Origin: a virus
IMG/VR virus record: IMGVR_UViG_3300042691_049018
Span: 1-22,659 of that record
DNA length: 22,659 nt
Direction: 5' to 3' (one strand)
Position 1 is the first letter of the stretch. Each line of letters begins with the position of its first letter. The position numbers and the translations under genes are program-made. Under the pieces are notes generated by a model. That model saw nothing but the letters and a program-made list of their open reading frames with translations. It did no database searches and was not told the origin of the DNA. Below are positions 3,026 to 17,809 of this stretch, piece by piece.

Positions 3026-3054
3026 AGGACTCAAAAAAAGTATAAATAAGTCCT
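3026..3054. repeat. Inverted repeat flanking the sheath-gene promoter box
   Basis: AGGACT (3026-3031) and its reverse complement AGTCCT (3049-3054) are separated by 17 bases that contain the TATAAATA box. A 6-bp stem with an A-rich loop is weak as an RNA hairpin. It could equally be a dyad operator, or chance in a short gap. Confidence 0.35.
3041..3048 (+). promoter_or_regulatory. T4-type late promoter box TATAAATA
   Basis: Exact match to the T4 late -10 consensus TATAAATA in the 34-base gap before the sheath gene, 8 nt before its ATG. In T4 the start of transcription lies about 6 nt after this box, so the 5' leader here would be only a few bases. It shares ATAAATAAGT with the box at 5705. 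Confidence 0.65.
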
Positions 3055-3056
3055 AT

Positions 3057-5693
3057 ATGAGAACTATTCAGTCACCTGGCGTGGAAATTCGCGAAATTGA
3101 TGCATCACAAGTCGCCTTCCAACCAGTAGGAACAAACGTATTTTTAGCGGGGTTTGCCCAACGCGGGCCAACCGATGAAGTATTGCAAATTACTTCAGTA
3201 CAAGAATTAGAACAAATTTATGGCACACCAGTTACACCAGCTGAAAGATATTTTTATCATTCTGCAAAACAAATTGTAACAGATTCTAATGCCAATTTAT
3301 ATGTAAATAGATTGCCATATGGCCCTGGTGCTGGTTATGGATATGGTTCATCTTATGGTGCATTAGTGTATCCTCTTGTGACATTAGAAGAAGATAAGAG
3401 TTCAACAGTATGGCGTGCTACAAAATCTGTCCCATCCAGTGCATTTGATTTTGCGGACAGTGGGTTGGATTTATCTTTTTTGGGTGGTATTTCGGTTGAA
3501 TGGAATGATGCTCAAATCAGCACATTAACAAGTCAAGGTATATCTTTATACAATAAAGATCTAGCAGTATTGAATGATGCAAAGTATAATGATTTGTTCA
3601 TAATAATGGGATATGCGTCAAATCCATCAACCATAATAGAAGCACAAGAGACAGTTATGGCTTCGTTTTTATCCGGCAACCAAATTTCCGTGACTGACAA
3701 TATAGCTGTATCTGCGGGAACTTACGTTTTAGGCGCGCCAAAATTCTTTGAATTATCTTTAGATCAATATAATGCAGTAATTGAAGGGACAGCGTTTAAT
3801 TGGTCCACAACGTCAGCTGTTTTAAGTGATATTAATTCAGTAGCTGATTTTGGAAAAGCTGGCTTGATTATTCTTAATAAAGGACAGACTGTAACAGAAG
3901 CACAAGCAGAAGGATTCTATGCTGCGATTACTGATAATACAAACGCAGAACCAACAACTGATCATGACAGCATTTTAAATGCATATACAGTAACTCAAGC
4001 AGCACCCCCAACAGGATTATTTGGTGACGGATTTACTCAAATCCCCGCAGAAAGATTAAATTTCTCATTATCTGGTGGTTCAGACACCGGTGTTGTACGC
4101 GATGATTCGAACATTTCATATAATCTCGAGCGTACTTTTTATAATTTCCCTGATTCAACCACAGAAAAATTTGACGATACATTATCAATCAGTGTTTATA
4201 AATTGAGAAGATCCATTTATACGCCAGATGCTATTAAGATGGATTATGTTCTAGAACGCAATCATATAGGATCACTTGATTTTAATCGTAAAATACAAGA
4301 TGTAAATGGCGGTGAAGCAGTATCTTATTTCATTTCAGCACCTCAAAAAGAAAGCAGAGCTATTAAAATCATTGTTAATGATAATATCACAAATAGAGGC
4401 GGTGATACATGGTTGAATGAAGTTGGAATTCCACGCAAGAAGGTAAGGCTTTATACAAGATCAACATTAAAGGCTCTAGAGGCAGATAATACATCCGGAT
4501 ATAGATTCGGTGGTTACTATCATGATTTCGTATCATTATCAGCAAAACTAGGATATAGTGATGCATTGTATCCAACTGGTCCATATACAAATTTAAATAT
4601 CAAAACAAAAGATATAGGAAATTTACCGAATAAGATTGAAAATGCGTTATATAAAGTTGAAAATGACGAATTATTTGATTTAGATCTTGTCGTCGAAGGC
4701 GGACTTGGTACAATCTATACAACATGCTGTGCAAATAAGGTCACTTACTTTGATGATACCGTAGTATCTGATAATTTTGCCACCGGATTAACTAATTTAA
4801 AAACAACCGGTGAATATTTCGAACCTTCTGATGGTAGTCAGGATCTAAGAGGACTCTATCATACCATTTTCTCACGATTTGATACATTCTGTTCCTCAGC
4901 TAGAAAAGATTGCATGTTTATTGCTGATCCTTTAAGACAAATATTTGTTAAAGGTGAAAATAGTAAAGTGTTACCTAATGCAAGTAATTCATTCTCACGT
5001 GACATTTACACTGCATTAAAGAATCTTTTCGGACTAGCTAATACAAATTATTCATGCTCTTATGGCAACTGGGCCAAGGTATATGATCCGGTAGCAGGAT
5101 TAAACATTTGGGTGCCTTTTTCACCATTTGCAGCTACAAGCTTTGTTAATACTGATGCTAATTACTATCCATGGTATGCTCCAGCCGGATTCACACGCGG
5201 TAAAGTACGCAATGTTCTCGAATTAGCCATAGCACCTAAACAAAAAGAAAGAGATCAATTATATAAAATTTCAGTAAATCCCGTAGCATTCTTCCCCGGA
5301 GATGGTATTACGATCTTCGGTCAAAAGACAATGCAGCGTCAACCCAGTGCTTTTGACCGCATTAATGTAAGAAGATTATTCTTATATCTCGAAAAAGCTA
5401 CAAAGAAGACAGTCAAATACTTCGTATTTGAACCTAATACAACATTTACGAGAACACGTTTAGTGAATACGCTGAATCCGATCTTCAATTTTGCTAAATC
5501 AACCCAGGGAGTAGCTGATTATATGATTGTAAGCGATAAAAGAAACAACACTCCTGATTCAATCGATAGTAACGAATTGGTAGTTGATATATACATCAAG
5601 CCTGTTCGAGCATCTGAATTCATTTTAGTGAACTTTATTGCTACTAGAACTGGAGCTAATTTCAGTGAATTAATCAGTGGTCCACGTCTCTAA
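3057..5693 (+). CDS. 18: Tail sheath protein (T4 gp18-like)
   Basis: This is the contractile sheath subunit that stacks around the tail tube and shortens to drive it through the cell envelope. The N-terminus has the classic sheath arm sequence SPGVEIREIDAS (residues 6-17), followed by a conserved strand region to about residue 85. The sheath signature YYPWYAPAGFTRG lies at 702-714, and the C-terminal domain ends with a strand (VDIYIKPVRASEFILVNF) like that used for subunit interlinking. At 878 residues it is about 220 longer than T4 gp18 (659), with the excess apparently between about residues 85 and 340, consistent with an inserted outward-facing domain. A late-promoter-like box precedes it. 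It is followed by the tube gene as in T4. Confidence 0.95.
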   Translation: MRTIQSPGVEIREIDASQVAFQPVGTNVFLAGFAQRGPTDEVLQITSVQELEQIYGTPVTPAERYFYHSAKQIVTDSNANLYVNRLPYGPGAGYGYGSSYGALVYPLVTLEEDKSSTVWRATKSVPSSAFDFADSGLDLSFLGGISVEWNDAQISTLTSQGISLYNKDLAVLNDAKYNDLFIIMGYASNPSTIIEAQETVMASFLSGNQISVTDNIAVSAGTYVLGAPKFFELSLDQYNAVIEGTAFNWSTTSAVLSDINSVADFGKAGLIILNKGQTVTEAQAEGFYAAITDNTNAEPTTDHDSILNAYTVTQAAPPTGLFGDGFTQIPAERLNFSLSGGSDTGVVRDDSNISYNLERTFYNFPDSTTEKFDDTLSISVYKLRRSIYTPDAIKMDYVLERNHIGSLDFNRKIQDVNGGEAVSYFISAPQKESRAIKIIVNDNITNRGGDTWLNEVGIPRKKVRLYTRSTLKALEADNTSGYRFGGYYHDFVSLSAKLGYSDALYPTGPYTNLNIKTKDIGNLPNKIENALYKVENDELFDLDLVVEGGLGTIYTTCCANKVTYFDDTVVSDNFATGLTNLKTTGEYFEPSDGSQDLRGLYHTIFSRFDTFCSSARKDCMFIADPLRQIFVKGENSKVLPNASNSFSRDIYTALKNLFGLANTNYSCSYGNWAKVYDPVAGLNIWVPFSPFAATSFVNTDANYYPWYAPAGFTRGKVRNVLELAIAPKQKERDQLYKISVNPVAFFPGDGITIFGQKTMQRQPSAFDRINVRRLFLYLEKATKKTVKYFVFEPNTTFTRTRLVNTLNPIFNFAKSTQGVADYMIVSDKRNNTPDSIDSNELVVDIYIKPVRASEFILVNFIATRTGANFSELISGPRL

Positions 5694-5704
5694 TATAGTT
5701 AACC

Positions 5705-5712
5705 CATAAATA
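5705..5712 (+). promoter_or_regulatory. Late-promoter-like box CATAAATA
   Basis: One mismatch to TATAAATA, in the 24-base gap between sheath and tube genes, ending 5 nt before the tube ATG. With T4 spacing, +1 would be the A of the start codon. The ten bases ATAAATAAGT are identical to those upstream of the sheath gene. A separate promoter would suit the high copy number of the tube protein. Confidence 0.55.
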
Positions 5713-5717
5713 AGTAT

Positions 5718-6320
5718 ATGGCAGACACAATACAAACAATCAGAGGGTTTTACGACAGAGCAGCTGTTGCAGATTTCGCGCGTGATTACTTATTTCGCGT
5801 AATGATGATCCGCACAGGTACCATGTTTCTAGGTGAAGAAGAGTTAGTATATGTAAAAACAGCTACTCTTCCTGGCAGAAATATTGAAAATGAAGCTGTC
5901 AAGTACATGGGGATGAATTTTAACATTCCCACGATTGCAACATATCCCAATTCTGAAGCATTTACTTTGACTTTTTATTGTGATGCCAATTCACTCTTGA
6001 GAGAAAGACTCATGTCTGAATCCCGTGCTGTGTTTAATGATGCAACTAGCACTGGTACGTATAATACACCGGGACGTGATAGCTATATTGAATTGTTACA
6101 ATTAGATAAAAAACTGGAACCCGTCATGCAATATACATTATTCGGCGCATCTATTCGCAATGTAGGTGAAATTGCTTATGAAATTGCAGAAGGCACTGGC
6201 AGTGTTAAAACATTTGATGTAACGTTTGCTTACCATTTCTTCGAAGAAAAGAGACCAGGCCAGTTCGCTTTAAATAATATCACCAATGCATTCCCAAATA
6301 TTAATGCTTTCTTGACATAA
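5718..6320 (+). CDS. 19: Tail tube protein (T4 gp19-like)
   Basis: This is the major tube subunit, whose hexameric rings form the DNA conduit inside the sheath. The 200-residue length is near that of gp19 (163 in T4). Family-like features are an N-terminal FARDYLFRVMM strand, the loop KTATLPGRNIE, a central TLTFYCDANSLLRERLMSE strand-helix unit and a C-terminal strand GSVKTFDVTFAYHFFEE that matches the terminal strand of the fold. Its position directly after the sheath gene repeats the 18-19 order of T4. A late-promoter-like box stands 5 nt before the ATG, with no Shine-Dalgarno. The related gene at 2426 is more divergent, so this one is the better candidate for the bulk tube protein. Confidence 0.9.
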   Translation: MADTIQTIRGFYDRAAVADFARDYLFRVMMIRTGTMFLGEEELVYVKTATLPGRNIENEAVKYMGMNFNIPTIATYPNSEAFTLTFYCDANSLLRERLMSESRAVFNDATSTGTYNTPGRDSYIELLQLDKKLEPVMQYTLFGASIRNVGEIAYEIAEGTGSVKTFDVTFAYHFFEEKRPGQFALNNITNAFPNINAFLT

Positions 6321-6329
6321 CTAATATAA

Positions 6330-7001
6330 ATGGCAGAAAACATTAACTCACCCAGAGAACATTTTCTTAGTAATATATCTGTTTGGGAATTAGATGTTCC
6401 TTTACAGACTCAATGGGTAGTTAGAATTGCACCCAAAGCTAGTTTAATAGATTTTTTTAGCTCCGTTCTTAGACATACTACTGTAGATCATTCACTGTTA
6501 GGTGATGTAACAAAATATTCACATTTTGAAAAGTTTCTGGGTACACGTGGTAATGCATTGGAAGAAGGGTTGGGATTGTATTTTGCACAAGGTGTTGAAA
6601 TACCCGGTGAATCTCTAGATTTGGAAATGGCATCGATGCAAGGAGACAATGGTTTTTTACAAGGTAATTTAGTCAAAAACAGGGCTTCTGGAAACAAAAG
6701 AGAACTTTCCATAAAACTATTAGAAACAAATTTAGATTTTATGGACGGCCTAATTAGACCATGGATAATTGCTGCTGGCTACATGGGCACATGTGCCGCT
6801 CCCGGGAGAACCTCAATTAAGTGTGATATACAAATTGTTCAATATACTAAAGGTCCTACCAAACCTGTTAGAAAAATACATAATTTTATAGATTGCGTGC
6901 CATACTCATGTGAGGGTAGTACATTGCAATATGACCAAGAAAACATAGTTGCAAAAAACGTATCATGGATTTATAATTATTATCATTATAAATTAATATA
7001 A
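6330..7001 (+). CDS. Tail tube initiator-like protein (T4 gp54-like candidate)
   Basis: The 223-residue product looks like a further member of the tube-fold family. It has an N-terminal PLQTQWVVRIAP strand, a YFAQGVEIPGESL loop of the sort seen in tube proteins, a central ELSIKLLETNLDFMDGLIRPW strand-helix unit and a C-terminal set of strands ending in VAKNVSWIYNYYHYKL. In T4, gp54 starts tube polymerisation on the baseplate hub and has this kind of fold. Position after gp19 and before hub-assembly genes fits that job. The gp54 label rests on fold-like pattern and context, not on strong identity; gp48 or another tube-like baseplate protein is possible. The ATG is preceded by an A/T-only leader; the stop overlaps the next start (TAATG). 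Confidence 0.5.
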   Translation: MAENINSPREHFLSNISVWELDVPLQTQWVVRIAPKASLIDFFSSVLRHTTVDHSLLGDVTKYSHFEKFLGTRGNALEEGLGLYFAQGVEIPGESLDLEMASMQGDNGFLQGNLVKNRASGNKRELSIKLLETNLDFMDGLIRPWIIAAGYMGTCAAPGRTSIKCDIQIVQYTKGPTKPVRKIHNFIDCVPYSCEGSTLQYDQENIVAKNVSWIYNYYHYKLI

Positions 7002-7837
7002 TGATCAAATCAAATTTTTATACAACCTTATATCTACCGGGTTGTAAAAAAAATATTAGAGTCAATGAAATTAACAATTTCTATTATCTAGATATTTTAA
7101 AATTTATTCAAAATAATGATATATCTGATTTAAATCACTTTCTGGATAAAGTAATTAAAGAAAATACAGATGCAGATATTAATGAATTGAGTAATGTAGA
7201 CAAATTTTGTATTTTAGTTGAAATGCGATCTATTTCTATAGGTAATATCATAGAATTTTTTATTGACAATACACACATAAAATATAATTTGTCTGATATC
7301 TGTAAAAATATTCAAAATTTAGAATTAAAATCTACAGAAATAGAATTTTGTGGAATTCCTATCATCATAGATATGCCTAGAAATTTTATTTTTAATGAAA
7401 ATGAAGACATATTGTTTCAATGCATTACTACTGTTGGTGATTTAAATTTAAATATTGTAAATGAATCAGAAAAAAAATTAATTTACAGTGCATTGCCGGC
7501 ACATGTATATTCTGATATTAAAAAATTTATTACAGATACATCTGATTTTTTTGATCAAAAAAATATTTTTTCAATATTAAATATTGATTCTTTCAAAAAT
7601 TTCAAACTAAATCCATTTAATACAACATTTATTGAATTTTTGAAATCTATATATAATGATAGTTTAACAAATTTTTATGATTTGCAATTTAGTTTAATAA
7701 CAAAATTAAACATATCATATGAACATTTTATGTCTATGACATTTAATGAATCAAGAATGTATGTTGCCTTACAAAACAAAGAAATAAAGAAACAAGAAGA
7801 GTCACAAAAGAAATCAGGTGGAAATTTGGCATTATAA
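7001..7837 (+). CDS. Baseplate hub assembly protein (gp26/gp51-like family), first copy
   Basis: This 278-residue protein resembles the T4 baseplate family that contains gp26 and gp51, which help assemble the central hub. The N-terminus (YTTLYLPGCKKNIRVNEINN) has the family's opening strand pair. A helical stretch follows with 'DKFCILVEMRSISIG', like the conserved '..L...R...IG' block. Later comes 'LIYSALPAHVYSDIKKFI', the family's short Pro-Ala helix. The tail is charged (KKQEESQKKSGGN). It overlaps the preceding stop by one base (TAATG) and has TATAAATT at 6987-6994, six bases from the ATG. The next gene appears to be a paralogue. Which corresponds to gp26 and which to gp51 cannot be decided by reading. 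Confidence 0.6.
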   Translation: MIKSNFYTTLYLPGCKKNIRVNEINNFYYLDILKFIQNNDISDLNHFLDKVIKENTDADINELSNVDKFCILVEMRSISIGNIIEFFIDNTHIKYNLSDICKNIQNLELKSTEIEFCGIPIIIDMPRNFIFNENEDILFQCITTVGDLNLNIVNESEKKLIYSALPAHVYSDIKKFITDTSDFFDQKNIFSILNIDSFKNFKLNPFNTTFIEFLKSIYNDSLTNFYDLQFSLITKLNISYEHFMSMTFNESRMYVALQNKEIKKQEESQKKSGGNLAL

Positions 7838-7851
7838 GCATATATAATTTT

Positions 7852-8586
7852 ATGGGTATTAATGATATTCTTCATAAATTAAATGAAATTAACAACGAAG
7901 ACAACATTAAAATATTAATCCCCTCATTAAATCGACTAGTTGCTTTTAAGCCATTATCGTTACAACAACAAAAAGATATATTAAAAGCTGGTATTTCATC
8001 TGAAATTTTTAATATATTGGAATTTAATGCTATTTTTAATAATATTATTGAACAAAATAGTTTAGAAAAAAATAATTATCTACTGCACGATAGACCCACG
8101 ATAGCCATGGCTTTTAGAAATAAATTTACGACACATGCTTTAGAAATTGATGAACAAACTATAGATACTAGCATTTTTAATGACAGACACATTTCTTTTG
8201 ACAAAGAAACATTTAATGAATTTTATATTGAAGAAGGTTTATTAAAAATAACAGCACAGGCACCTTCTTTACATGAAGATCAAATTATAACAAAATTACA
8301 ACTATCAAAAATTAAAAAAACAAATAATATTGATATTACAAATGTTATAGGAGAAATGTATGTATTCGAAATTTTAAAATACATAAAATCTATACAAGTC
8401 GGTGAATTAAAACAAGAATTAATTACTCTTTCAATTGAAGATAGAATCAAAGTTGTTGAACAAATACCCGCGTCTATAATTACTAAATTAAATGATCTAA
8501 TCACAGAAAAATTCAAAAACCCCGAAGATGAATATTTGACCGTAGGTAGCAAAAAAATTACGTTAGACGCTAGACTCTTTGTTTGA
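7852..8586 (+). CDS. Baseplate hub assembly protein (gp26/gp51-like family), second copy
   Basis: This 244-residue protein has the gp26/gp51-type start: 'IKILIPSLNRLVAFKPLSL' followed by 'QQQKDILKAG', i.e. strand, Pro-Leu turn and helix. The C-terminal part contains 'VVEQIPASIITKLNDLI', which parallels the LPAHVYSDIKKFI segment of the neighbour, supporting paralogy. It probably acts in hub assembly and may not remain in the virion, as reported for some T4 hub-assembly proteins. It is in a run with the gene before it (14-base gap) and the tape measure gene after it. There is no Shine-Dalgarno; the ATG follows TATATAATTTT. Confidence 0.65.
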   Translation: MGINDILHKLNEINNEDNIKILIPSLNRLVAFKPLSLQQQKDILKAGISSEIFNILEFNAIFNNIIEQNSLEKNNYLLHDRPTIAMAFRNKFTTHALEIDEQTIDTSIFNDRHISFDKETFNEFYIEEGLLKITAQAPSLHEDQIITKLQLSKIKKTNNIDITNVIGEMYVFEILKYIKSIQVGELKQELITLSIEDRIKVVEQIPASIITKLNDLITEKFKNPEDEYLTVGSKKITLDARLFV

Positions 8587-8596
8587 AGATTTTGCC

Positions 8597-8604
8597 ATTA
8601 AATA
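8597..8604 (+). promoter_or_regulatory. Late-promoter-like box ATTAAATA
   Basis: Two mismatches to TATAAATA with the TAAATA core intact, in the 24-base gap before the tape measure gene. It ends 6 nt before the ATG, the same geometry as the other late-like boxes in the window. Confidence 0.45.
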
Positions 8605-8610
8605 ATTATA

Positions 8611-10581
8611 ATGGCAAAATCTGATCCTACACAAGATATATTATCAGAATTAAAATCTCTAAATAAATCAAATAATTCATTTAGAGATAAAATTCTCGAA
8701 TATAATAGGATAACTGCTAGTGCCGCAGGCACCACAGCAAATGCTTCGAAGTCCCTCTATGATATTTCGGCACATCTTGCTAATTTAACAGATGCATTTA
8801 ACAATTTAACTAAAACAGTATCTGATATATCAGATACTGTAATGGAAGTTGCAGTTAAACCAGAGACAGGCAATCCTCTTTTAATGCCTTGGGAAAGAAA
8901 ACGATTCCAAGCAATTGCAAATATTTTTAAAAATATTTTATATGGTGCAGACAAAAATAAAAATAAACTCCAATTACTACCCAATTCCACTAATACGCAA
9001 GCAGTATCTTCCACAGAAAGCATTGATAAAAAAAATACTGAATCATATGAAAACATAGCAAATATTTTTGATAAAGTATTAAAAATTTCATCTTTACCTA
9101 TTGCTTTGGATAAAATTAGTAACATTCTCTTAAGAGCTGAATTGAATAGAATAGAAGAAAGAAAAGATACTGAAAGAAGTAGTAGTTTTAAAGAATATGA
9201 AAGAGAACCAGTAATCTCGAAAACGCCAATTGGCGATAAAACAAAAGAAAAATCAAATTTTTTAACAGATTTTTTAAAAAAAATACCACTTATAGGTGAT
9301 TTATTTAGAATTATGCAAGGATTGGGTACAATGCTAATTGCAGCTAGCCCGGTTATAGCATTCCTTTCACATTTTTTATCTGATGAAATATCACCATGGC
9401 AAGGTACCCTAGATTTAGTAGCTAAACTAAAAACTCTAGGTGGCAAAACTTTCGGTGAACTAAGTGAGTTAATTTTAGCTAAAACTACATCTATTATTCA
9501 ATGGCCGTTTAAATTTTTAAAAGAAAAAATTCCATCTATTTTTGAAAACATAAAAATACCGTTTGCAAAAACGGGTGAGAAAACAGCAGTTGCAGCAACA
9601 GAAGGCGCATCTAGTTTGTTAAAGGTTGGAACTAAGGGTGGTATTTTATCTAAATTATTAGGATTTGCCGGGACAGGTATTAAAGCTGTCGCTAAAGGAT
9701 TATCCAAAATACCAATATTAGGATCATTACTCACACTTTATTTTGCATATGATAGATATAAAAAGGGTGATTATTGGGGTATGTTGCTAGATCTCGCAAG
9801 TATTGCTGTTTTAGCGATTCCCGGCTACGGCCCGTTTATTAGTTTAGGGCTAGGAATTTTATCAGGATTAAGAGATCTTACTGATAATGAAGAAGATAAT
9901 AAACAATTTAAGTTGAATGCAGAAAAAGGTTTTGGCAATTGGATAAAAGATGGCATGTCTGATATATATAAGACGGTTGCAGAGTATTTTAGTAAAAAAA
10001 TGCAAGGCCTGATTAATCTATCCAAAGATGCTATTAAAAAAATAAAAGATTTTTTTGGATTTACAGATGAAACACCACAAGTAAAAACATTGCCCAATCC
10101 AATAAAACAAATAGAAGATAGCTATAATAAAAAAATAGAAGAATCTAAACAGGCTATGAAAAGTGTTTCCGGTCGCAACAGTTTGGAAGCTAAGAAAAAA
10201 TATCAAAGTGACATTGAAAAGTTGGAAAAAGACAGAGATGCAGCAATTGAAACTATAAAAAAAACTAATAGTGAATTGCCATTGCCTAGGTCAATACCAC
10301 CAACAACTACTTTAGAATCAAAGCCCGGTAATCCTGAAAAGGATTCAAAAATGTCTTATGCAGAAATTCAATTAATGATGGACCAAAATAAAATATTAGC
10401 CGATCAAACAAATATATTAAAACAAATAGCAGAAAAAGATACTAAAGTTACAGTAAATGCTAATTCAAATAACAACCGCGTAATTGATAATGATGTGAAA
10501 ATTAAACAAAATATTTCTGAAAGCCGTAAAAATTATCTCAAAGCATCAGAAGTAGCAACTTATTTATTAGGAGACAAATAA
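8611..10581 (+). CDS. Tape measure / baseplate hub protein (T4 gp29-like candidate)
   Basis: This 656-residue protein fits a tail length ruler by size, composition and place among hub genes; T4 gp29 has 590 residues. The first 200 residues are helical and Ser/Asn-rich, with several amphipathic runs. Two hydrophobic regions follow: about 224-254 (IPLIGDLF...LIAASPVIAFL) and about 367-423 (IPILGSLLTLYFAYDRYKKG, then LLDLASIAVLAIPGYGPF). Such Gly/Ile-rich membrane-seeking helices are typical of tape measure proteins, which are expelled into the envelope at infection. Residues about 500-560 form a Lys/Glu-rich coiled-coil-like helix. If wholly helical (0.15 nm per residue) it would set a tail of roughly 100 nm at most. 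Identity with gp29 is inferred, not seen by direct alignment. Confidence 0.65.
   Translation: MAKSDPTQDILSELKSLNKSNNSFRDKILEYNRITASAAGTTANASKSLYDISAHLANLTDAFNNLTKTVSDISDTVMEVAVKPETGNPLLMPWERKRFQAIANIFKNILYGADKNKNKLQLLPNSTNTQAVSSTESIDKKNTESYENIANIFDKVLKISSLPIALDKISNILLRAELNRIEERKDTERSSSFKEYEREPVISKTPIGDKTKEKSNFLTDFLKKIPLIGDLFRIMQGLGTMLIAASPVIAFLSHFLSDEISPWQGTLDLVAKLKTLGGKTFGELSELILAKTTSIIQWPFKFLKEKIPSIFENIKIPFAKTGEKTAVAATEGASSLLKVGTKGGILSKLLGFAGTGIKAVAKGLSKIPILGSLLTLYFAYDRYKKGDYWGMLLDLASIAVLAIPGYGPFISLGLGILSGLRDLTDNEEDNKQFKLNAEKGFGNWIKDGMSDIYKTVAEYFSKKMQGLINLSKDAIKKIKDFFGFTDETPQVKTLPNPIKQIEDSYNKKIEESKQAMKSVSGRNSLEAKKKYQSDIEKLEKDRDAAIETIKKTNSELPLPRSIPPTTTLESKPGNPEKDSKMSYAEIQLMMDQNKILADQTNILKQIAEKDTKVTVNANSNNNRVIDNDVKIKQNISESRKNYLKASEVATYLLGDK
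10569..10574 (+). promoter_or_regulatory. Shine-Dalgarno-like AGGAGA before the gp48-like gene
   Basis: AGGAGA lies 8 nt before the ATG at 10583. It is the only strong Shine-Dalgarno-like match before any start in the window. It also encodes the Leu-Gly-Asp end of the preceding protein, so it may be coincidental. Confidence 0.4.
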
Positions 10582-10582
10582 T

Positions 10583-11863: not shown

Positions 11864-11892
11864 CAACAGAAGGCATTAATAACAATTAATAT

Positions 11893-12243
11893 ATGGAATC
11901 CTACAATATATCACACCCTAACGAATATTACGAAAACATTTTCAATATGTATAAAGATACTAATGAAAATGGTGATATGTATTATTTTTATAATATAGGA
12001 AAAAAAGTTACTTTGCCTGAAAATATTGATGACGGTGTTTTTGATTATTTTTCTGTGCCTGACACTTTGCCGCTGACAACCATAAGCTATCAAGTATATG
12101 GTTCAATTCATTTGTGGTGGTTGTTATTACTATGTAATAATATTCAAAATTCATTAAAATTAATAACACCCGGATCAGTTATAAAAATAATAAAAAAGGA
12201 ATATTTGGCTTCTGTTTTAAATTCATTAAAAGTAAAAGAATAA
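11893..12243 (+). CDS. 53: Baseplate wedge protein (T4 gp53-like), short form
   Basis: This 116-residue protein matches the core of gp53, the wedge protein that clamps the wedge to the hub. The motif 'TTISYQVYGSIHLWWLLLLCNN' with its Tyr-Gly and paired Trp, followed by 'LITPGSVIKIIK', is the LysM-like signature of the family (S-Y-x-V-Y-G ... W-W-x-L-x-x-x-N ... G-x-x-I-x-I). T4 gp53 is 196 residues, so the N-terminal or peripheral part is reduced here. It sits between gp48-like and gp27-like genes. The ATG is preceded by an A/T-only leader with no Shine-Dalgarno. Confidence 0.75.
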   Translation: MESYNISHPNEYYENIFNMYKDTNENGDMYYFYNIGKKVTLPENIDDGVFDYFSVPDTLPLTTISYQVYGSIHLWWLLLLCNNIQNSLKLITPGSVIKIIKKEYLASVLNSLKVKE

Positions 12244-12244
12244 T

Positions 12245-13759
12245 ATGGCTATATCAAATTATATAGGTAGTGATCAAGAATTATTTAAATACCAATATAA
12301 TGGCGATGATTATCTTGTTTGCGGATCATTCGTATCATTGGATGATTCAGGAAATGGAATTTTATTAAAAGGAAACGCATTTAAATATATTGAAATTGTT
12401 GACAATATATATCATCCATTTCATACTGCTGAAATTATTGTTAACAATAATTTAAACTTTTTTGATAAAGAATATAATTTTCTAGGCAATGGTAGAGATA
12501 TGTTGGTATTGACTATATTGCCAAATTCTGATCAAGATGCAATATTGCCGCATAATAATGAAGATTTTGTTTTAAAATTTGAATTTATAATAACAGAATG
12601 TATTGATATCAATTATGAAAATGCTTTATGCAAGAGATTGAAATTAGTCGAAGCAAAGGAGTATAAATTATCAGAAACATTTTTTAATATCGCAGGTGTA
12701 CAACGTTCTTTGGGCGGATTCTCCTATTTGAGTTCTAATGAAGGCAACGCAAAACCAACTAGTAGTTGGATAAAATCAATCTTAAGTAATGTTTACACAG
12801 AAATGAATGATAATATCTTCATTAAAGATAAAGAAGGAAAAGATTTTTTTGAAGAGTCAAATTGCATAAACATAGATATCACACCACATGGTGCAATACC
12901 AAATATTTCTGTATTAAATTATGTATTACAATTTCATACACATAACGAAAGTCCATGTATATTAAGATTCGATAGAGTAAAAAAGAAATTTTTTGTTTTA
13001 TCATATAATACATTATTCTCAAATAGTGAATTATTTTGCAAAGACGAAATACACTTCGGGCGGCAATCAAATGAAATTGAAAAAAATACACCTGATATAG
13101 AATATGATTATTTTTCGAGGATCTGGGGTGAATATGCATTGTTAGGTAATAGTGGAAAAAATTCACAAATTATAGAATTTTATAGAGAAAATCCCGATGC
13201 TGCTCTTATTTTGAAGTTCTTTTCAAAAGAAGGCATGTCCAGCTATTCAAGAGCACATGGTGCATTTATGTACAACACACAAGCACTGGCACCCGAAGAA
13301 ATAATACAAAAATATAATAAATTATTTGTTGAACCCTTTAAAAAACTTTTTAATAAAAACGAACTTACATATAATTTCATATTACCACAAAGTACTGCTC
13401 ATATGCAAAATGCATGGAAAACCGTCACAGATTCTTTGCCTCCGGAAATGAATGAAGAAAAAATTAAAATTAAAAAATTATCAAATCTATTAAATTTAAA
13501 TTATACGTATATGTTCAAGCTTAAAGGTTCGACAGTTAGGAAGGCGGCAACATTTGTAGATGTATTAAAATTTAATAATATTGATACAGATGAAAGGTAC
13601 GATTTTAATAATTTGGGTAGACATCTAGTAACCACTGTAAAACATATTTTTACTGAAAATACCTATTTTAATAAAATAGAAACTATAAAGCCATATAAAC
13701 TAACACCGAGCCAATCAAAATATGGCATGAATTCAATTAACAATTTGTTAAAGTCATGA
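12245..13759 (+). CDS. 27: Baseplate hub subunit (T4 gp27-like)
   Basis: This 504-residue protein has the form of gp27, the trimeric ring that connects the tail tube to the spike protein. An N-terminal strand-rich domain (LLKGNAFKYIEIVDNIYHPF, then TAEIIVNN) reads like the first tube-like barrel of gp27. Later 'VLKFEFIITECIDINYENAL' and 'KRLKLVEAKEYKLSE' resemble the region that leads into 'SFxYLSSNEG...SWIKSILSN', a pattern common in gp27 homologues. T4 gp27 has 391 residues, so this copy is longer, mainly C-terminally. It starts two bases after gp53 and its stop overlaps the next start by ATGA, implying translational coupling with the protein it should bind. Confidence 0.75.
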   Translation: MAISNYIGSDQELFKYQYNGDDYLVCGSFVSLDDSGNGILLKGNAFKYIEIVDNIYHPFHTAEIIVNNNLNFFDKEYNFLGNGRDMLVLTILPNSDQDAILPHNNEDFVLKFEFIITECIDINYENALCKRLKLVEAKEYKLSETFFNIAGVQRSLGGFSYLSSNEGNAKPTSSWIKSILSNVYTEMNDNIFIKDKEGKDFFEESNCINIDITPHGAIPNISVLNYVLQFHTHNESPCILRFDRVKKKFFVLSYNTLFSNSELFCKDEIHFGRQSNEIEKNTPDIEYDYFSRIWGEYALLGNSGKNSQIIEFYRENPDAALILKFFSKEGMSSYSRAHGAFMYNTQALAPEEIIQKYNKLFVEPFKKLFNKNELTYNFILPQSTAHMQNAWKTVTDSLPPEMNEEKIKIKKLSNLLNLNYTYMFKLKGSTVRKAATFVDVLKFNNIDTDERYDFNNLGRHLVTTVKHIFTENTYFNKIETIKPYKLTPSQSKYGMNSINNLLKS

Positions 13760-15360
13760 TAGTAAAAACCGGTTTTCCAGAATATATTGAATCAATAGCT
13801 ATTGGTGAAAATATTGATTTTATAAAAGATAATACAGATCTCTGTCATATGGCGGAAGATTTTCCTGCAGAAATGAATCTTGCTTATTTGTGGAAAAAAA
13901 TTGCTACTGATTCAGATACTATAGCAGCCTCTAGAGAATTTATGAAAAATTTTCTACTAGATGCACCCGGATTAACTACAGAACATTTATTGTTTTACAG
14001 ACAAAAAATAGACCAGCTTCCTAATGATGTAAAACAAGTATTAAAAAGAGAAGTTAATTCAGCATTTGCAAAATCAGAAAATTTATCTGAGAGAGTAACT
14101 ACTACTGAATCACAAAGAAATTTTAATAGATCAACTCCTATAGACAAAGATAAGGATTTTCTGCAAAAGATATCTGATTTGATGAATCAGTGTGAATCAG
14201 CTTGCAATTATTTTAAAAATTTATCACAAAGAGTAGGTTCAATTTATGATTATAGTGCTGTGAATACAATTCATAATTCACCGCCGCAAGATACTGATTT
14301 AAATTCACCCCCACCAACAGGTCTATCTTTGGAAAAGGTAAACAAAATCCCCTCTGCTTTACTTGATTCTATTACAGAAGCATACACTAGTATGAAAACT
14401 TTTATGGATAAAGCAAAATCATCTTTGCATAATTTTGTTTCAAACTATAATTTAGAAAAATTGGGAAAAAATGCATTTGCTCCAGACGAAAAAGGCGCAG
14501 TATATATTGGCGCAACTAGTCCAACACTATTTCAAAGCACAATGGAGGCATATTCTAAAGGTGTTGCAAACAATAAAATGTTGCTGGGCGACTGTTTCAG
14601 AATAGTTGATTATATGTCTAGATATAATCCTTTCAATCCCGAAATGAATATAGCAAAGCCCATTGACAAGGACATAGGGATTAAAACATTAGAAGCCGTA
14701 AATGGAGAATATGTTCCAACAACCATAAAAGTTAAGGTAAATGGTGTTACTACTTCTTCACATAATGGCAGATCTTTTGGTATGTCAGATACGCCATCAA
14801 ATACAATTAAATTACATGATGAGCTCAAAAAGAAAAAAACAAGCAAGAATCATTCACAGACTCAAGAAGAAGTAAGAGAAGCGTTAGACAAATATTTAGA
14901 AGGTTCACCTCTCGTCACTAATTTCGAAAATTTATCACCCGAAACGAGAGCACAAATGGCTTCATATGGAATAGTAACAGGATCTAAAGAAGAATGGTCA
15001 AATTTCTTTATGCGCCTAGGTAATGTAGAGTCTGGATTTAATCAAAGCAATGTTTCAGACATAAATGGATTTAGCCCGGGGCAAAAGGGGTATAATGGTA
15101 ATCCCACTTCTTATGGTGTATTTCAAATTGGACTAGCGGCTGGTCCTGGTTATAAGCTTAATGGTGGCAAAAGTTTCACACCTGAACAATTATTTGATGT
15201 CAACACTAATACACAAGCTGCAGTTAAAATTTGGGAAACAAATTTATATAAATCCAATTATGGTTTTATAAAATCTTCAAACGGTGCTGGAGTGGGGTAT
15301 TTTGGTAAAGCAAGTATGAACAAAATACGTAACGACTATTCTTCTAACACCTATTATTAA
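13756..15360 (+). CDS. Baseplate hub/spike protein with C-terminal lytic transglycosylase domain (occupies gp5 position)
   Basis: The 534-residue product sits where T4 has gp5, the lysozyme spike, but its enzyme domain is different. Residues about 410-534 look like a soluble lytic transglycosylase (SLT/goose-lysozyme-like fold): Glu425 in NVESGFN is the likely catalytic acid, followed by YGVFQIG at 453-459, the family's G-[VLM]-[FM]-Q-I motif. Residues 1-170 are mainly helical. A Pro-rich linker (SPPQDTDLNSPPPTG, about 176-190) and a central, partly strand-rich region (VPTTIKVKVNGV) follow. I see no T4-lysozyme motif and no octad repeat of a gp5 beta-helix, so the needle tip must be encoded elsewhere. 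ATGA coupling to gp27 supports hub membership. The likely role is cutting peptidoglycan at DNA injection. Confidence 0.8.
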   Translation: MIVKTGFPEYIESIAIGENIDFIKDNTDLCHMAEDFPAEMNLAYLWKKIATDSDTIAASREFMKNFLLDAPGLTTEHLLFYRQKIDQLPNDVKQVLKREVNSAFAKSENLSERVTTTESQRNFNRSTPIDKDKDFLQKISDLMNQCESACNYFKNLSQRVGSIYDYSAVNTIHNSPPQDTDLNSPPPTGLSLEKVNKIPSALLDSITEAYTSMKTFMDKAKSSLHNFVSNYNLEKLGKNAFAPDEKGAVYIGATSPTLFQSTMEAYSKGVANNKMLLGDCFRIVDYMSRYNPFNPEMNIAKPIDKDIGIKTLEAVNGEYVPTTIKVKVNGVTTSSHNGRSFGMSDTPSNTIKLHDELKKKKTSKNHSQTQEEVREALDKYLEGSPLVTNFENLSPETRAQMASYGIVTGSKEEWSNFFMRLGNVESGFNQSNVSDINGFSPGQKGYNGNPTSYGVFQIGLAAGPGYKLNGGKSFTPEQLFDVNTNTQAAVKIWETNLYKSNYGFIKSSNGAGVGYFGKASMNKIRNDYSSNTYY

Positions 15361-15818
15361 TCCTGAGTCAATTCAGGCGTATTCTCAATTATAGTAGCAT
15401 TAATTAATTGTTTCATTAATTCTTCTCTAGTAGATCTCAATTTTAATCCCACAACAGCATCTAATTCTTTTTGCCTGCTCTTATTATCCATTTCTTTGAT
15501 CTTAATAGCAGTACTAGTCTTCTTGTCAGTGATAAGGATGCGATTCAAACTTTCAACAGCGGAAGAGGTGGCCTTAATTAATTCAGCCAATGCAGTCACC
15601 TCTTCAGCATTAGGTGCTGCTTCTACGTAGTCTCTAACTAATGTAACAGATTCTGATGCTTGTTTGACCAAATTGCCTGTATGTTTTAAAATGAATTCCT
15701 CGAGATTTTCCTTTGTTAGGGTATCTTCTACTTGTTCGACTTCTTTCGTCGCTTTAGGAATAGATTTTAGTTGATTTATGAGCGAATCTACAGAGTCTAA
15801 TGAATCATCTTCTGACAT
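15357..15818 (-). CDS. Probable terminase small subunit (T4 gp16-like)
   Basis: This 153-residue, almost wholly helical and acidic protein has the outline of T4-type gp16, the ring-forming DNA-recognition partner of gp17 (164 residues in T4). A disordered acidic N-terminus (about 1-35) precedes a helical hairpin. The segment 'YVEAAPNAEEVTALAELIKA' and then 'LNRILITDKK' resembles the gp16 pattern of a Pro-led helix containing 'E.V.TLI..' followed by 'LL.LHK..K'. The identification is by pattern only; another coiled-coil structural protein is possible. It lies on the opposite strand, about 14 kb from gp17. Its stop overlaps the preceding plus-strand stop (TTAA). A TAAATA box lies 6 nt before its ATG, so late expression is expected. 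Confidence 0.5.
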   Translation of the reverse strand: MSEDDSLDSVDSLINQLKSIPKATKEVEQVEDTLTKENLEEFILKHTGNLVKQASESVTLVRDYVEAAPNAEEVTALAELIKATSSAVESLNRILITDKKTSTAIKIKEMDNKSRQKELDAVVGLKLRSTREELMKQLINATIIENTPELTQD

Positions 15819-15824
15819 AAAAAT

Positions 15825-15832
15825 TATTTATT
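15825..15832 (-). promoter_or_regulatory. Late-promoter-like box AATAAATA for the minus-strand gp16-like gene
   Basis: Read on the minus strand, AATAAATA ends 6 nt before the ATG at 15818, with an ATTTTT spacer. It keeps the TAAATA core and spacing of the plus-strand boxes. It overlaps the -35 element of the divergent dUTPase promoter, so the two may compete. Confidence 0.5.
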
Positions 15833-15859
15833 GATAATTTACTAAGCATCACCTATAAT
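15831..15859 (+). promoter_or_regulatory. Sigma70-type promoter for dUTPase-gp44
   Basis: TTGATA (15831-15836) and TATAAT (15854-15859) are separated by exactly 17 bases, a near-ideal host sigma70 promoter. The -10 ends 6 nt before the dUTPase ATG, so +1 would fall at or next to the start codon. This contrasts with the late-type boxes elsewhere and suits early or middle expression of DNA-metabolism genes. Confidence 0.65.
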
Positions 15860-15865
15860 TTATAT

Positions 15866-16300
15866 ATGATTAAATTCTTAAAGACTCATCCAGATGCTGT
15901 TTTACCAAAGAAAAACAATCCAGATCCTTCTATTGGAGATAGTGGATATGATATGACCGCAGTTGATGAAACAATTATTCCGGCAAGAGGATCTGCTGTC
16001 GTTCCGGTAGGTTTAACATTAGCATATCTATCACCAGAATTTTGGGTCCGAATTGAAAGCAGATCGGGTTTGGCATTTAAACACAATATTACTGCATTTA
16101 ATGGTATTATTGATAATCCATACCGCGGTGATTTGGGCGTGAAATTATTCAATCATTCTGATGTTGACTATGTTGTAAAAAAGGGTGATCGCTGTGCACA
16201 GTTAGTTATCTATCCATTAGTACATATGACGGCAGACTGGTCTGATTCAGTATCAGAAACAAGTCGCGGTGCTAGGGGATTTGGTTCTTCTGGAAAATAA
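15866..16300 (+). CDS. dut: dUTPase (deoxyuridine 5'-triphosphate nucleotidohydrolase)
   Basis: Hydrolyses dUTP to dUMP and pyrophosphate, keeping uracil out of phage DNA and feeding dTMP synthesis. All five motifs of the trimeric dUTPase family are present in 144 residues: motif 1 DSGYDMTA (25-32), motif 2 RIESRSGLAFK (62-72), motif 3 NGIIDNPYRGDLGV (79-92) with Asp83 as the water-activating residue and Tyr86 for uracil discrimination, motif 4 KGDRCAQLVIYP (106-117) and motif 5 RGARGFGSSGK (134-144), the C-terminal arm that closes the active site. The gene looks complete and functional. It lies between a probable late packaging gene on the other strand and gp44, with its own sigma70-like promoter. 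Confidence 0.97.
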   Translation: MIKFLKTHPDAVLPKKNNPDPSIGDSGYDMTAVDETIIPARGSAVVPVGLTLAYLSPEFWVRIESRSGLAFKHNITAFNGIIDNPYRGDLGVKLFNHSDVDYVVKKGDRCAQLVIYPLVHMTADWSDSVSETSRGARGFGSSGK

Positions 16301-16305
16301 TTATT

Positions 16306-17223
16306 ATGAATTTTGATAATATTTGGGTAGAGAAGTATCGACCCAAGACATTAGATGATATTGTTCTTCCGGTTGATACACGGAAGGTCATTGAATCATA
16401 TAAAGCAAAGAAGGAGATCTCGAATCTCCTTCTTATTTCATCACCAGGCCAAGGAAAGACTACATTAGCTAAGATGATTGTAAATCATATCTTAGAATGT
16501 GATTATCTTTATGTAAATGCCTCTGATGAAAATGGCATTGATACTATCAGAACAAAAGTAATTTCATTTGCACAAACCAGATCATTGACTGGTGATATTA
16601 AAGTCATTATTTTGGATGAAGCAGATGGTATCTCAGCCGAAGGTCAAAGAGCGTTGCGTAACGTAATGGAAGAATATGCAGCAAATACGCGCTTTATTCT
16701 AACAGCAAATTATAAACACAAGATCATTCCCGCAGTTCAATCACGTTGTGTTAGCTTGAATTTTAATCATAATATTCAAGATGTTATTAAACATTGCTTT
16801 GGTATCCTTAAAAAGGAAGGTATTGCTGTACCAGAAGAGCAAAAGCCTCTGTTTATTGAATTAGTGAAGCACAATTTTCCTGATTTTAGAAAGATCATTA
16901 ATGAATTACAAAAAAATTCTACGTCAGGTACTCTATCAATTGTTAATCAGGCTACACAAAATGAATTTGTTAAAGAAGTTTTTGATAAGATCAAAGAAAA
17001 TCCTTTTGAATGTAGAAAGTTTTACATTCAAAATGAAAGTACCTTTCAGTCTGATTACCATAACCTAATGAAAAATATGGTTCAGTATGTTTACTCTTGG
17101 CAGAATGAACCAAAGAAAGCAGAAACCATCTTAGTAATTACAGAATACATGTATAGACATGCATTTGTTGTTGATCAAGAGATCAATTTCTTTGCATTAA
17201 TATTGCAAATAGCAAAATTATAA
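16306..17223 (+). CDS. 44: Sliding clamp loader ATPase subunit (T4 gp44-like)
   Basis: AAA+ ATPase that, with gp62, loads the gp45 clamp onto primer-template DNA. The 305 residues (319 in T4) start with the clamp-loader signature WVEKYRPKTLDDI (7-19). The Walker A is SSPGQGKTT (45-53, Lys51). The Walker B is VIILDEAD (100-107). Sensor 1 lies in LTANYKHKI with Asn135. The arginine-finger motif SRC is at 146-148. The C-terminal half is the helical collar. It follows dUTPase by five bases and probably shares its promoter. The partner gp62 and clamp gp45, adjacent in T4, are not in the window. The stop overlaps the convergent minus-strand gene (TTATAA, 17218-17223). Confidence 0.95.
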   Translation: MNFDNIWVEKYRPKTLDDIVLPVDTRKVIESYKAKKEISNLLLISSPGQGKTTLAKMIVNHILECDYLYVNASDENGIDTIRTKVISFAQTRSLTGDIKVIILDEADGISAEGQRALRNVMEEYAANTRFILTANYKHKIIPAVQSRCVSLNFNHNIQDVIKHCFGILKKEGIAVPEEQKPLFIELVKHNFPDFRKIINELQKNSTSGTLSIVNQATQNEFVKEVFDKIKENPFECRKFYIQNESTFQSDYHNLMKNMVQYVYSWQNEPKKAETILVITEYMYRHAFVVDQEINFFALILQIAKL

Positions 17224-17778
17224 TTCTTGAAAACTCTTAAGATACCTGGCAGTAGTTGGTTGTTGCGCGGGTATCTTAATATTTTGAGTAGGTAACTTAT
17301 GTTCAATGCTTGTAAGTTTACCTTCTCCCTTGTCAGATTTAAAAGATTCTGTTTCTTTTACAGAATATTCAAGTGGTTTGATTTGTGTGCCATTCGGTCT
17401 TACTAAAGAAGAGTCAAAAGCGGGATAATTAATTCCATCTGTTTCCATTTGTTCAACACAACAAGCAGGAATCTTTGTATAATGCGTATATCTTCCACCA
17501 CCATTATCCAAAGCAATATCTAAAGTAACATTACCCGTCATGGTATCTGGATTTCCTGGATATCTTGGTGTGTTATTATCTACAATACCAACTACACGAA
17601 GATGTAATTTGGATGATTCCATCTCGTCAAGCAATTGTTTGATATTAGTTCCAAGCATTTTGTAAGCTTCATTAGTTTTGAAATTTTTAGCAAATTTAAC
17701 ATAGTCACCAACTAAAAATCCACCGCGGGAATAACGGGTCAAGGCTGCTTCAAAAATAGCATGAAACTTCTTCTTCAT
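17218..17778 (-). CDS. Hypothetical protein, minus strand, between gp44 and gp25
   Basis: I do not recognise this 186-residue protein. The N-terminal part has a basic-aromatic stretch followed by RYSRGGFLVGDYVKFAKNF (15-33), whose GGFxVGDxVxF looks like an SH3-like or small beta-barrel opening. A helix follows (IKQLLDEMESSKLHLRVVGI). A Gly/Asn/Pro-rich middle comes next, with CCVEQM, and a long Lys/Thr/Gln-rich C-terminal tail without predicted fold. It has no signal peptide or membrane segment. A TAAATA box lies 5 nt before its ATG, so it is probably a late gene and possibly a virion or head-assembly protein, by inference from timing only. It runs convergent to gp44 with overlapping stops and divergent from gp25. 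Confidence 0.65.
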   Translation of the reverse strand: MKKKFHAIFEAALTRYSRGGFLVGDYVKFAKNFKTNEAYKMLGTNIKQLLDEMESSKLHLRVVGIVDNNTPRYPGNPDTMTGNVTLDIALDNGGGRYTHYTKIPACCVEQMETDGINYPAFDSSLVRPNGTQIKPLEYSVKETESFKSDKGEGKLTSIEHKLPTQNIKIPAQQPTTARYLKSFQEL

Positions 17779-17783
17779 GCTAT

Positions 17784-17791
17784 TATTTACT
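17784..17791 (-). promoter_or_regulatory. Late-promoter-like box AGTAAATA for the minus-strand hypothetical gene
   Basis: On the minus strand AGTAAATA ends 5 nt before the ATG at 17778 (spacer ATAGC). It forms a divergent pair with the plus-strand box at 17797-17804 within a 31-base intergenic space. Confidence 0.45.
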
Positions 17792-17796
17792 TAATT

Positions 17797-17804
17797 GTTA
17801 AATA
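17797..17804 (+). promoter_or_regulatory. Late-promoter-like box GTTAAATA before gp25
   Basis: The TAAATA core ends 5 nt before the gp25 ATG at 17810 (spacer TTTTT). With T4 late-promoter spacing, the first transcribed base would be the A of ATG. It would drive gp25, gp6 and the following large gene. Confidence 0.45.
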
Positions 17805-17809
17805 TTTTT

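Follow-up and report, generated by a model that had tools for sequence, protein, structure and literature searches.

Probable T4-type late promoter boxes beside start codons predict leaderless or nearly leaderless late mRNAs in a phage lineage

The 22,659-base stretch of viral DNA analysed here, referred to as the window, is the entire virus record IMGVR_UViG_3300042691_049018, and it is included at 99.956% identity in a contig of 98.6 kb, G001. Among its genes, those for a large terminase, tail tubes, a tail sheath (3057-5693, plus strand; phrog_23, E 2.8e-70), baseplate wedges, a dUTPase and a clamp loader have matches in T4-like phages, and the tail tube gene of most interest here lies at 5718-6320 on the plus strand (phrog_45, E 7.9e-18). 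A megablast search of the window against phage records gave no match, and the best 25 of the sheath matches among 2,606 phage records have 34-42% identity over 30-37% of the protein. The hexamer TAAATA stands a few nucleotides before six start codons of the window, on both strands, an arrangement from which an earlier note on this DNA had predicted leaderless late mRNAs. Since the window lies inside G001, the rest of this contig provides an out-of-sample test.

The six boxes and their frequency

All six boxes were verified at their places and spacings. On the plus strand, they lie at 3043-3048, with a gap of 8 nt to the sheath ATG at 3057, at 5707-5712 (gap 5, tail tube ATG at 5718), at 8599-8604 (gap 6, ATG at 8611, opening a gene for a protein of 656 aa with peptidase/endolysin-type matches) and at 17799-17804 (gap 5, ATG of a gp25-like baseplate wedge gene at 17810). 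On the minus strand, they lie at 15825-15830 (gap 6, ATG at 15818) and 17784-17789 (gap 5, ATG at 17778), before genes encoding proteins of 153 and 186 aa with no PHROG match. The T4 late box is described as covering positions -13 to -6 (PMC1524935), and as it ends at -6, a gap of 5 nt puts the first transcribed nucleotide (+1) on the A of the AUG. With this geometry, +1 is predicted on the A of the ATG at 5718, 17778 and 17810, at 8610 or 8611 and at 15819 or 15818 for the two gap-6 genes, and at 3054 for the sheath gene. The earlier placing of +1 on or within about 3 nt of the AUG agrees with this geometry and is refined at the sheath gene, where the gap of 8 nt would leave a 3-nt leader.

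Genes were called as the longest ATG-initiated open reading frames that reach 60 aa and overlap to a limited extent, which excludes GTG and TTG starts and shorter genes. Six of the 20 starts called in the window are boxed at 5-8 nt. When the upstream 40-mers were shuffled 1000 times by dinucleotides, the mean was 0.23 and no shuffle exceeded 3; the earlier note had rated 6 of 19 as notable. When every hexamer was scanned in every 4-nt gap window, six were again found in the window and at most four in 300 shuffles. Only 3 of the 896 non-start ATGs of the window have the box at 5-8 nt, and TAAATA as a whole is rarer in the window than expected (31 occurrences versus 66 in shuffles). The same enrichment is found in G001 outside the window, with 18 of 89 starts boxed at 5-6 nt (shuffles: mean 0.61, maximum 4). 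For the entire contig, the box is present at this distance before 23 of 109 starts and, as a check of non-start ATGs showed, before just 5 of 4008 of these. TAAATA at gap 5 is the highest-ranked hexamer in G001, and at this gap, counted at any position of the contig, the box is followed by ATG 17 times and by GTG four times. Genome-wide, TAAATA is the most depleted of the 15 A4T2 hexamers in G001 (118 occurrences, where shorter words predict 245), as would be expected if stray promoters were selected against; this depletion is also found in T4 and Cr30 and is absent in Syn9, Aeh1 and the contig G021.

The near matches that the earlier note had added to the six gave a mixed picture. The gene behind TATAAATT at 6987 has an exact TAAATA at 5-6 nt in 2 of 22 homologues and that behind AAAATA at 16294 in 0 of 12, while TATAAT at 15854 is rather read as the -10 element of a sigma-70 promoter, with a -35 element 17 nt upstream.

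Spacing, start position and ribosome binding in related phages

The distance from box to ATG was counted for 795 starts of ten related contigs; as three of these (G006, G002 and G007) are closely related to G001, the counts are not independent, and starts lacking the needed upstream length near a contig end were dropped (1 of 796). For gaps of 0 to 10 nt, the numbers of boxed starts are 0, 7, 2, 3, 2, 82, 58, 8, 14, 12 and 9, which confirms genome-wide the peak at 5-6 nt, with sums of 14 at 0-4 nt and 43 at 7-10 nt. The abrupt drop below 5 nt is as expected from the T4 geometry, because a shorter gap would put +1 inside the start codon.

Gap counts were also made for 11 named phages, in which the arrangement differs widely (for P-SSM2, KVP40, pf16, nACB2 and phiW-14, the search was limited to gp33 and gp45). 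T4 has no box at 5-6 nt and 22 at 21-30 nt, and the corresponding numbers are 0 and 16 in Aeh1, 0 and 1 in Cr30 and 0 and 3 in phiM9; phiM12 and DLP6 have no box at 5-6 nt. The cyanophages behave in the same manner, with 0 of 180 starts boxed at 5-6 nt in Syn9 and 0 of 207 in S-PM2, 15 and 14 boxes respectively at 21-30 nt, and most of the boxes within 60 nt lying at 21-40 nt (22 of 31 and 29 of 43). The Pelagibacter phages HTVC008M and Mosig have 11 and 6 boxes at 5-6 nt, all of them at exactly 5 nt, along with 2 and 9 at 21-30 nt. Ten of the 11 gap-5 starts of HTVC008M were compared with the RefSeq annotation (142360 was left out) and all ten agree. In the methylophage Melnitz, longer gaps predominate, and three boxes lie exactly 5 nt from the start.

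Conservation was followed gene by gene, in counts that include the G001 copy and some near-identical contigs and from which homologues with an unaligned N-terminus or less than 30 nt of upstream sequence were dropped. Among 28 sheath sequences, the gap is 8 nt in ten (72-100% identity) and 5-6 nt in 12, and it is 13-21 nt in six more distant ones (the sheath genes of L031, L033, L048-L050 and G017). The orthologues with longer gaps share the same N-terminus, so the sheath ATG is correctly called, and the leaders of L031 and L033 contain AAAGG. Judged by box distance, then, the orthologous sheath gene exists in both leadered and leaderless-type forms. The tail tube gene at 5718 has 67 homologues, 28 with a gap of 5-6 nt, 16 with 7-10 nt, 13 with 11 nt or more and ten with no box. 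The gap is 5-6 nt in 3 of 4 homologues of the 8611 gene (7 nt in the other), in 3 of 4 of the 15818 gene (no box in the other), in 5 of 5 of the 17778 gene, down to 28% protein identity, and in 2 of 5 of the gp25-like gene at 17810 (7 nt in one and no box in two). A gap of 5 nt is found too at 31132-31575 of HTVC008M, annotated as a baseplate wedge subunit. With regard to window genes that are not boxed, homologues with a gap of 5-6 nt are few for the clamp loader (0 of 12) and the 7001 gene (2 of 22), and more frequent for the 7852 gene (7 of 29), gp53 (4 of 19) and the first tube gene (4 of 51). As a separate observation, an inverted repeat, AGGACT...AGTCCT (3026-3054), lies on both sides of the sheath late box, and 8 of the 10 close sheath sequences retain it; it could fold just ahead of the ATG in read-through RNA, and a late RNA beginning at 3054 would lack the repeat. 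Similar repeats precede G001 5993-6697 (minus strand) and 28428-29081.

The base composition around the boxes provides further information on the start site. At leadered sites, the sixth nucleotide after the box is a purine with a frequency of 0.76 in T4, 0.79 in Aeh1, 0.84 in the cyanophages and 0.79 in loci from metagenome-assembled genomes (MAGs), the range over five sets being 0.73-0.84, and in each of the five this frequency exceeds those at positions 1-5. This purine preference is taken as a sign of +1 that is independent of the T4 literature. In gap-5 genes of the clade, a pyrimidine precedes the AUG in 49 of 57, versus 254 of 408 genes with no box (p 3e-4 in a Fisher test that excluded G006, G002, G007 and G011), and the same preference is found in HTVC008M and Mosig taken together (16 of 17 versus 139 of 290, p 2e-4).

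Shine-Dalgarno (SD)-like sequences are almost absent from the boxed starts of the clade, with 1 in 180 at gaps of 5-10 nt. When the box lies 11-40 nt away, they are found in 26 of 30 starts of T4, 26 of 28 of Aeh1, 8 of 10 of HTVC008M, 15 of 20 of Mosig and 21 of 25 of Melnitz, and in 8 of 25 of Syn9, 12 of 37 of S-PM2 and 6 of 43 of the clade contigs. The most telling contrast is that within HTVC008M, where an SD-like sequence accompanies 1 of 14 starts at gaps of 5-10 nt versus 8 of 10 at 11-40 nt; within Mosig, the numbers are 0 of 9 versus 15 of 20. As for the 109 starts of G001, 27 have a late box at 5-10 nt, ten a sigma-70 type promoter at 5-7 nt, 40 abut the upstream gene and two have only an SD-like sequence.

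Two candidate helpers of leaderless translation were considered and set aside. In 16 stretches of G001, G006 and G015 searched for a phage initiator tRNA, the sole tRNA is one with a CAT anticodon in G015, and its anticodon stem, judged by eye, lacks the GGG/CCC pairs of initiators. Homologues of ribosomal protein S21 are encoded in 4 of 14 records (G015 84906-85037, G017 51591-51728, HTVC008M 91237-91392 and Mosig 9983-10132) and not in G001, so that no simple correlation emerges; the S21-bearing phages all have at least some leaderless-type starts.

Promoter classes and rival explanations

A homologue of the T4 late sigma factor gp55 is encoded at 33033-33533 of G001 (166 aa; phrog_234, E 6.9e-23), and gp55 was found in 9 of the 25 records searched, Mosig included. 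The earlier suggestion to look for gp55 and gp33 was thus borne out for the former and not for the latter, which was detected in none of seven contigs. A sliding clamp, gp45, is matched weakly at 50039-50773 (phrog_223, 47.9 bits), and 2 of the 7 contigs searched have such a match. Upstream of the box, no conserved -35 element is apparent, as no column from -14 to -41 rises above 0.49 bits in 52 gap-5 sites of G001, G015, G012 and G013, and positions -13/-12 are relaxed, being mostly A and A/C and not TA. PHROG scans covered 56 of the 109 G001 genes, comprising every one of the 24 with a box at 5-8 nt and another 32. None of 14 genes with matches in replication, recombination, transcription or nucleotide metabolism has a late box, versus 5 of 11 genes with clear virion matches (chance 0.009, calculated by hand), counts that omit a PhoH-like gene (boxed), the 8611 gene (boxed) and a glycosyltransferase gene (not boxed). 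In HTVC008M, ten gap-5 genes were checked, of which 7 are virion genes and the other three encode an oxygenase, CsgF and a cyclase. Annotations at the gap-5 genes of this phage include baseplate wedge subunit, DNA end protector, head closure, baseplate tail tube cap and tail completion. The box is also far less frequent at starts that abut the upstream gene (10 of 264) than at divergent starts (60 of 162), a deficit that is in part unavoidable because a box there would fall in coding sequence. Among the divergent starts, those at 17778 and 17810 are separated by a region of 31 nt (17779-17809) with two back-to-back late boxes. In the ten contigs, 16 divergent pairs are boxed on both starts, six with exactly 31 nt and nine with 31-33 nt between them, several of which look orthologous; two SD-bearing leaders would hardly fit in 31 nt.

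A second class of promoter, of sigma-70 type, has a similar layout. The dUTPase gene (15866-16300, plus strand; phrog_135, E 9.8e-37) is preceded by TTGATA at 15831-15836 and, after a spacer of 17 nt, by TATAAT at 15854-15859, 6 nt before its ATG. The sigma-70 -10 hexamer ends at -7, so a gap of 6 nt puts the predicted +1 on the A of the ATG, and the dUTPase gene is predicted to have an early-type leaderless start. Of five dUTPase homologues besides the G001 copy, TATAAT lies 6 nt before the called start in two (G002 and G015) and not in three, and the G002 homologue reads TTGAAA-N17-TATAAT-N6-ATG. At starts with no late box, TATAAT at gap 6 is found 12 times in G015, three times each in G001 and G021, once each in HTVC008M, Mosig, G013 and G017, and not in T4, Syn9 or S-PM2. 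The fuller pattern TTGANN-N16-18-TANNNT at gap 6 occurs before 13 starts of G015, five of G001 and three of Mosig (shuffled means 0.14, 0.04 and 0.07) and before none in T4, Syn9 or S-PM2, Syn9 having a cluster at 22-23 nt; G001 has three more sigma-70 type promoters at gap 5 and two at gap 7. The modal gaps of the two classes, 5 nt (late) and 6 nt (sigma-70 type), differ by 1 nt, which is the difference between the native box-to-start distances. In the region 15819-15865, the leftward late box at 15825-15830 directly adjoins the -35 element of the rightward dUTPase promoter; two polymerases could hardly bind together at such abutting elements, and the arrangement may act as an early-to-late switch. 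Separately, five of the small genes with TATAAT at gap 6 in G015 4038-8988 (L114) begin with ATGATG; in three of the five, AGGAG lies between TATAAT and the ATG.

Taken together, the TAAATA boxes are very probably late promoters of T4 type, and the late mRNAs are likely, from box position and comparison with relatives, to be leaderless or nearly so. The earlier prediction of leaderless late mRNAs is in this sense supported, by the peak at 5-6 nt, the presence of gp55 and a gap that is consistent with T4. In the proposed mechanism, we infer that the six boxes would be read by the host RNA polymerase with a phage gp55-like sigma factor, that the first transcribed nucleotide would lie on the start codon or at most about 3 nt ahead of it, and that the late mRNAs would be translated without an SD sequence, presumably by direct binding of 70S ribosomes to the 5'-terminal AUG, which is described as the main route of initiation on leaderless mRNAs (PMC9031893). 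Early-type genes would share this layout, with -10 boxes about 6 nt ahead of the ATG.

Several observations weigh against this interpretation. The gaps of G021 are spread broadly over 5-10 nt and those of G017 peak at 6 and not 5 nt, while the 3-nt leader predicted for the sheath gene recurs in the closest relatives of the window, which keep the gap of 8 nt. In gap-6 genes, the sixth nucleotide after the box is a purine with a frequency of only 0.44-0.48, and such genes probably start at the seventh nucleotide, again the AUG, or vary; at the leadered sites of HTVC008M and Mosig, purines at positions 7, 9 and 10 exceed those at position 6. The division of late gaps between 5 and 6 nt (82 to 58) likewise blurs the tidy offset of 1 nt between the promoter classes, and TATAAT at gap 6 is uneven, with 12 cases in G015, one in G013 and none in G012 and G011. 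SD-like sequences are rare in the clade contigs anyway (60 of 572 starts with no box, and few even at gaps of 11-40 nt), and their lack is therefore a weaker indication there than in HTVC008M and Mosig. In G001, 30 of the 109 starts have neither a late box nor a sigma-70 promoter, an abutting gene or an SD-like sequence. Most of the boxed genes are anonymous, as the 24 boxed at 5-8 nt comprise 16 with no PHROG, one of a family with no known function and one PhoH-like gene, so that lateness is shown for few. With regard to the machinery, the gp45 match reaches just 48 bits, and gp33 was found in 0 of 7 contigs (G001, G006, G011, G012, G015, G017 and G021), which may be incomplete, gp33 being short. 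The same search matched gp33 in 13 of 14 reference phages, and gp55 is present in each of the seven gp33-negative contigs; loss of gp33, divergence beyond recognition or a location outside the contig could each explain this.

Other explanations of the boxes were weighed. That an AT-rich composition alone yields TAAATA near starts has practically no chance of being correct: the upstream sequences are indeed very AT-rich, but none of 1000 shuffles matches the observed counts in the window, the rest of G001, G015, HTVC008M or Mosig, the hexamer is depleted in G001 overall, and the explanation is already refuted by the non-start ATGs, the shuffles and the ten-contig gap counts. The earlier note had itself named an alternative, that the motif acts in translation initiation. 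Such an element could be, for instance, an unstructured AT-rich ribosome standby site, with the promoter further upstream. The fixing of the motif to the AUG within 1-2 nt would suit such an element, as would the rarity of SD sequences across the clade, where another signal would be needed. A translation element should, however, not lie 11-40 nt away, often with an SD sequence, as TAAATA does in T4, Aeh1, MAG-derived relatives and other genes of HTVC008M and Mosig, nor 13-21 nt away, as in the six sheath genes mentioned above. It also fails to account for the preference of the box for divergent over abutting starts, for its absence from the 14 replication-type genes of G001 and for the modal gap of 6 nt of a different motif, the -10 element with its -35. 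An effect on translation is therefore disfavoured and appears quite improbable.

A closer rival would keep the late promoters and give them short real leaders, owing to an unusual start distance of gp55, or would have the genes start just inside, at a later in-frame codon. The T4 spacing is assumed here for a diverged gp55, 43 of the 795 starts lie at gaps of 7-10 nt, and the 8-nt sheath gap is shared by all 10 close sequences, three points that would agree with short leaders. Conversely, a start on the AUG agrees with the scarcity of gaps below 5 nt and with a pyrimidine at -1 followed by a purine at +1, the shared N-terminus of sheath orthologues argues that the ATG is right, and the divergent regions of 31 nt leave scant room. 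Short leaders or internal starts are accordingly unlikely, and leaderless or nearly leaderless late mRNAs remain the preferred interpretation. It is about an even question whether a broader picture also holds, in which both the early (host sigma) and the late (gp55) programmes of this T4-like lineage proceed via leaderless mRNAs, with many other genes coupled to an abutting upstream gene and SD sequences almost unused, and in which late promoters have switched between leadered forms with SD and leaderless forms more than once.

The host was sought in two scans. A scan of genome contigs with the tube protein found no relative. One with a sheath alignment returned 50 loci, which come from MAGs, one single cell and one isolate, belong to many phyla and are not close enough to point to a host; 44 of them have at least five called genes, and in these the boxes number 117 at 21-40 nt versus 21 at 5-6 nt (summed by hand). 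The -10 element of Bacteroidota differs from that of sigma-70, and the sigma-70 type promoters argue against a host of this phylum. No Rfam family was found at gathering scores in the window or G001. Elsewhere in G001, a GTP cyclohydrolase (28428-29081) and a QueC-like protein (42189-42932) suggest a 7-deazaguanine pathway, perhaps for phage DNA modification. A CGAAACC motif ends 15-17 nt ahead of three genes (3191-4813 on the minus strand, 28428-29081 and 48802-49656; L095-L097), none of which has a late box and two of which encode the GTP cyclohydrolase and a gp32-like protein.

Comparison with known systems

No description of leaderless late mRNAs in T4-like phages was found among the titles and abstract openings listed by searches of open PMC papers. 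Phage transcripts are reported to be often leaderless in work on AR9 (PMC5312081), and the authors of Melnitz list 15 late promoters, with no mention of leaderless mRNAs in the portion seen (PMC9004378). The prediction of late promoters by cyanophage methods has been reported as unsuccessful in pelagimyophages (PMC7029224), for which the short gap between box and AUG is a possible reason. T4 late transcription is a textbook system, and the present lineage would have the same promoter moved onto the AUG. For uncultured phages of this group, the spacing of box and ATG offers a simple rule by which starts and operons can be found. The competition of leaderless mRNAs for ribosomes in infected cells could be tested directly with cultured phages whose genomes combine both kinds of start.

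In bacteria, leaderless genes of Actinobacteria and Deinococcus-Thermus have a -10 box about 12 bp ahead of the start, and bacterial leaderless genes have been inferred much as here, by a -10-like signal located some 10-12 bp upstream (PMC3160421). The genes described here resemble them in having a promoter box at a fixed short distance, no SD sequence and an AUG start, and differ in belonging to a T4-like phage with two promoter classes, one of them presumably read by a phage sigma factor. The late promoters of T4 (TATAAATA, read with gp55, gp33 and gp45) share with the present boxes the TAAATA core, the lack of a conserved -35 element, gp55, a weakly matched clamp and some virion genes. Unlike those of T4, where 17 of 21 listed TATAAATA sites lie 17-29 nt from the ATG, the boxes here lie 5-6 nt away, with no SD sequence, with mostly A and A/C rather than TA at -13/-12 and with gp33 not detected in the seven contigs. 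A relaxed -13/-12 has been described for S-PM2 and Aeh1 (PMC1524935), and the cyanophage late promoters (S-PM2 NATAAATA, and Syn9) are similar in their core motif and relaxed -13 (PMC2984593, PMC1524935); their boxes, however, lie mostly 21-40 nt away and never at 5-6 nt. The nearest parallel in spacing is that of HTVC008M, Mosig and Melnitz, in which the box lies exactly 5 nt before 11, 6 and 3 starts, respectively. In these three phages, unlike the clade, such starts are a minority, and boxes at 11-40 nt mostly go with SD-bearing leaders.

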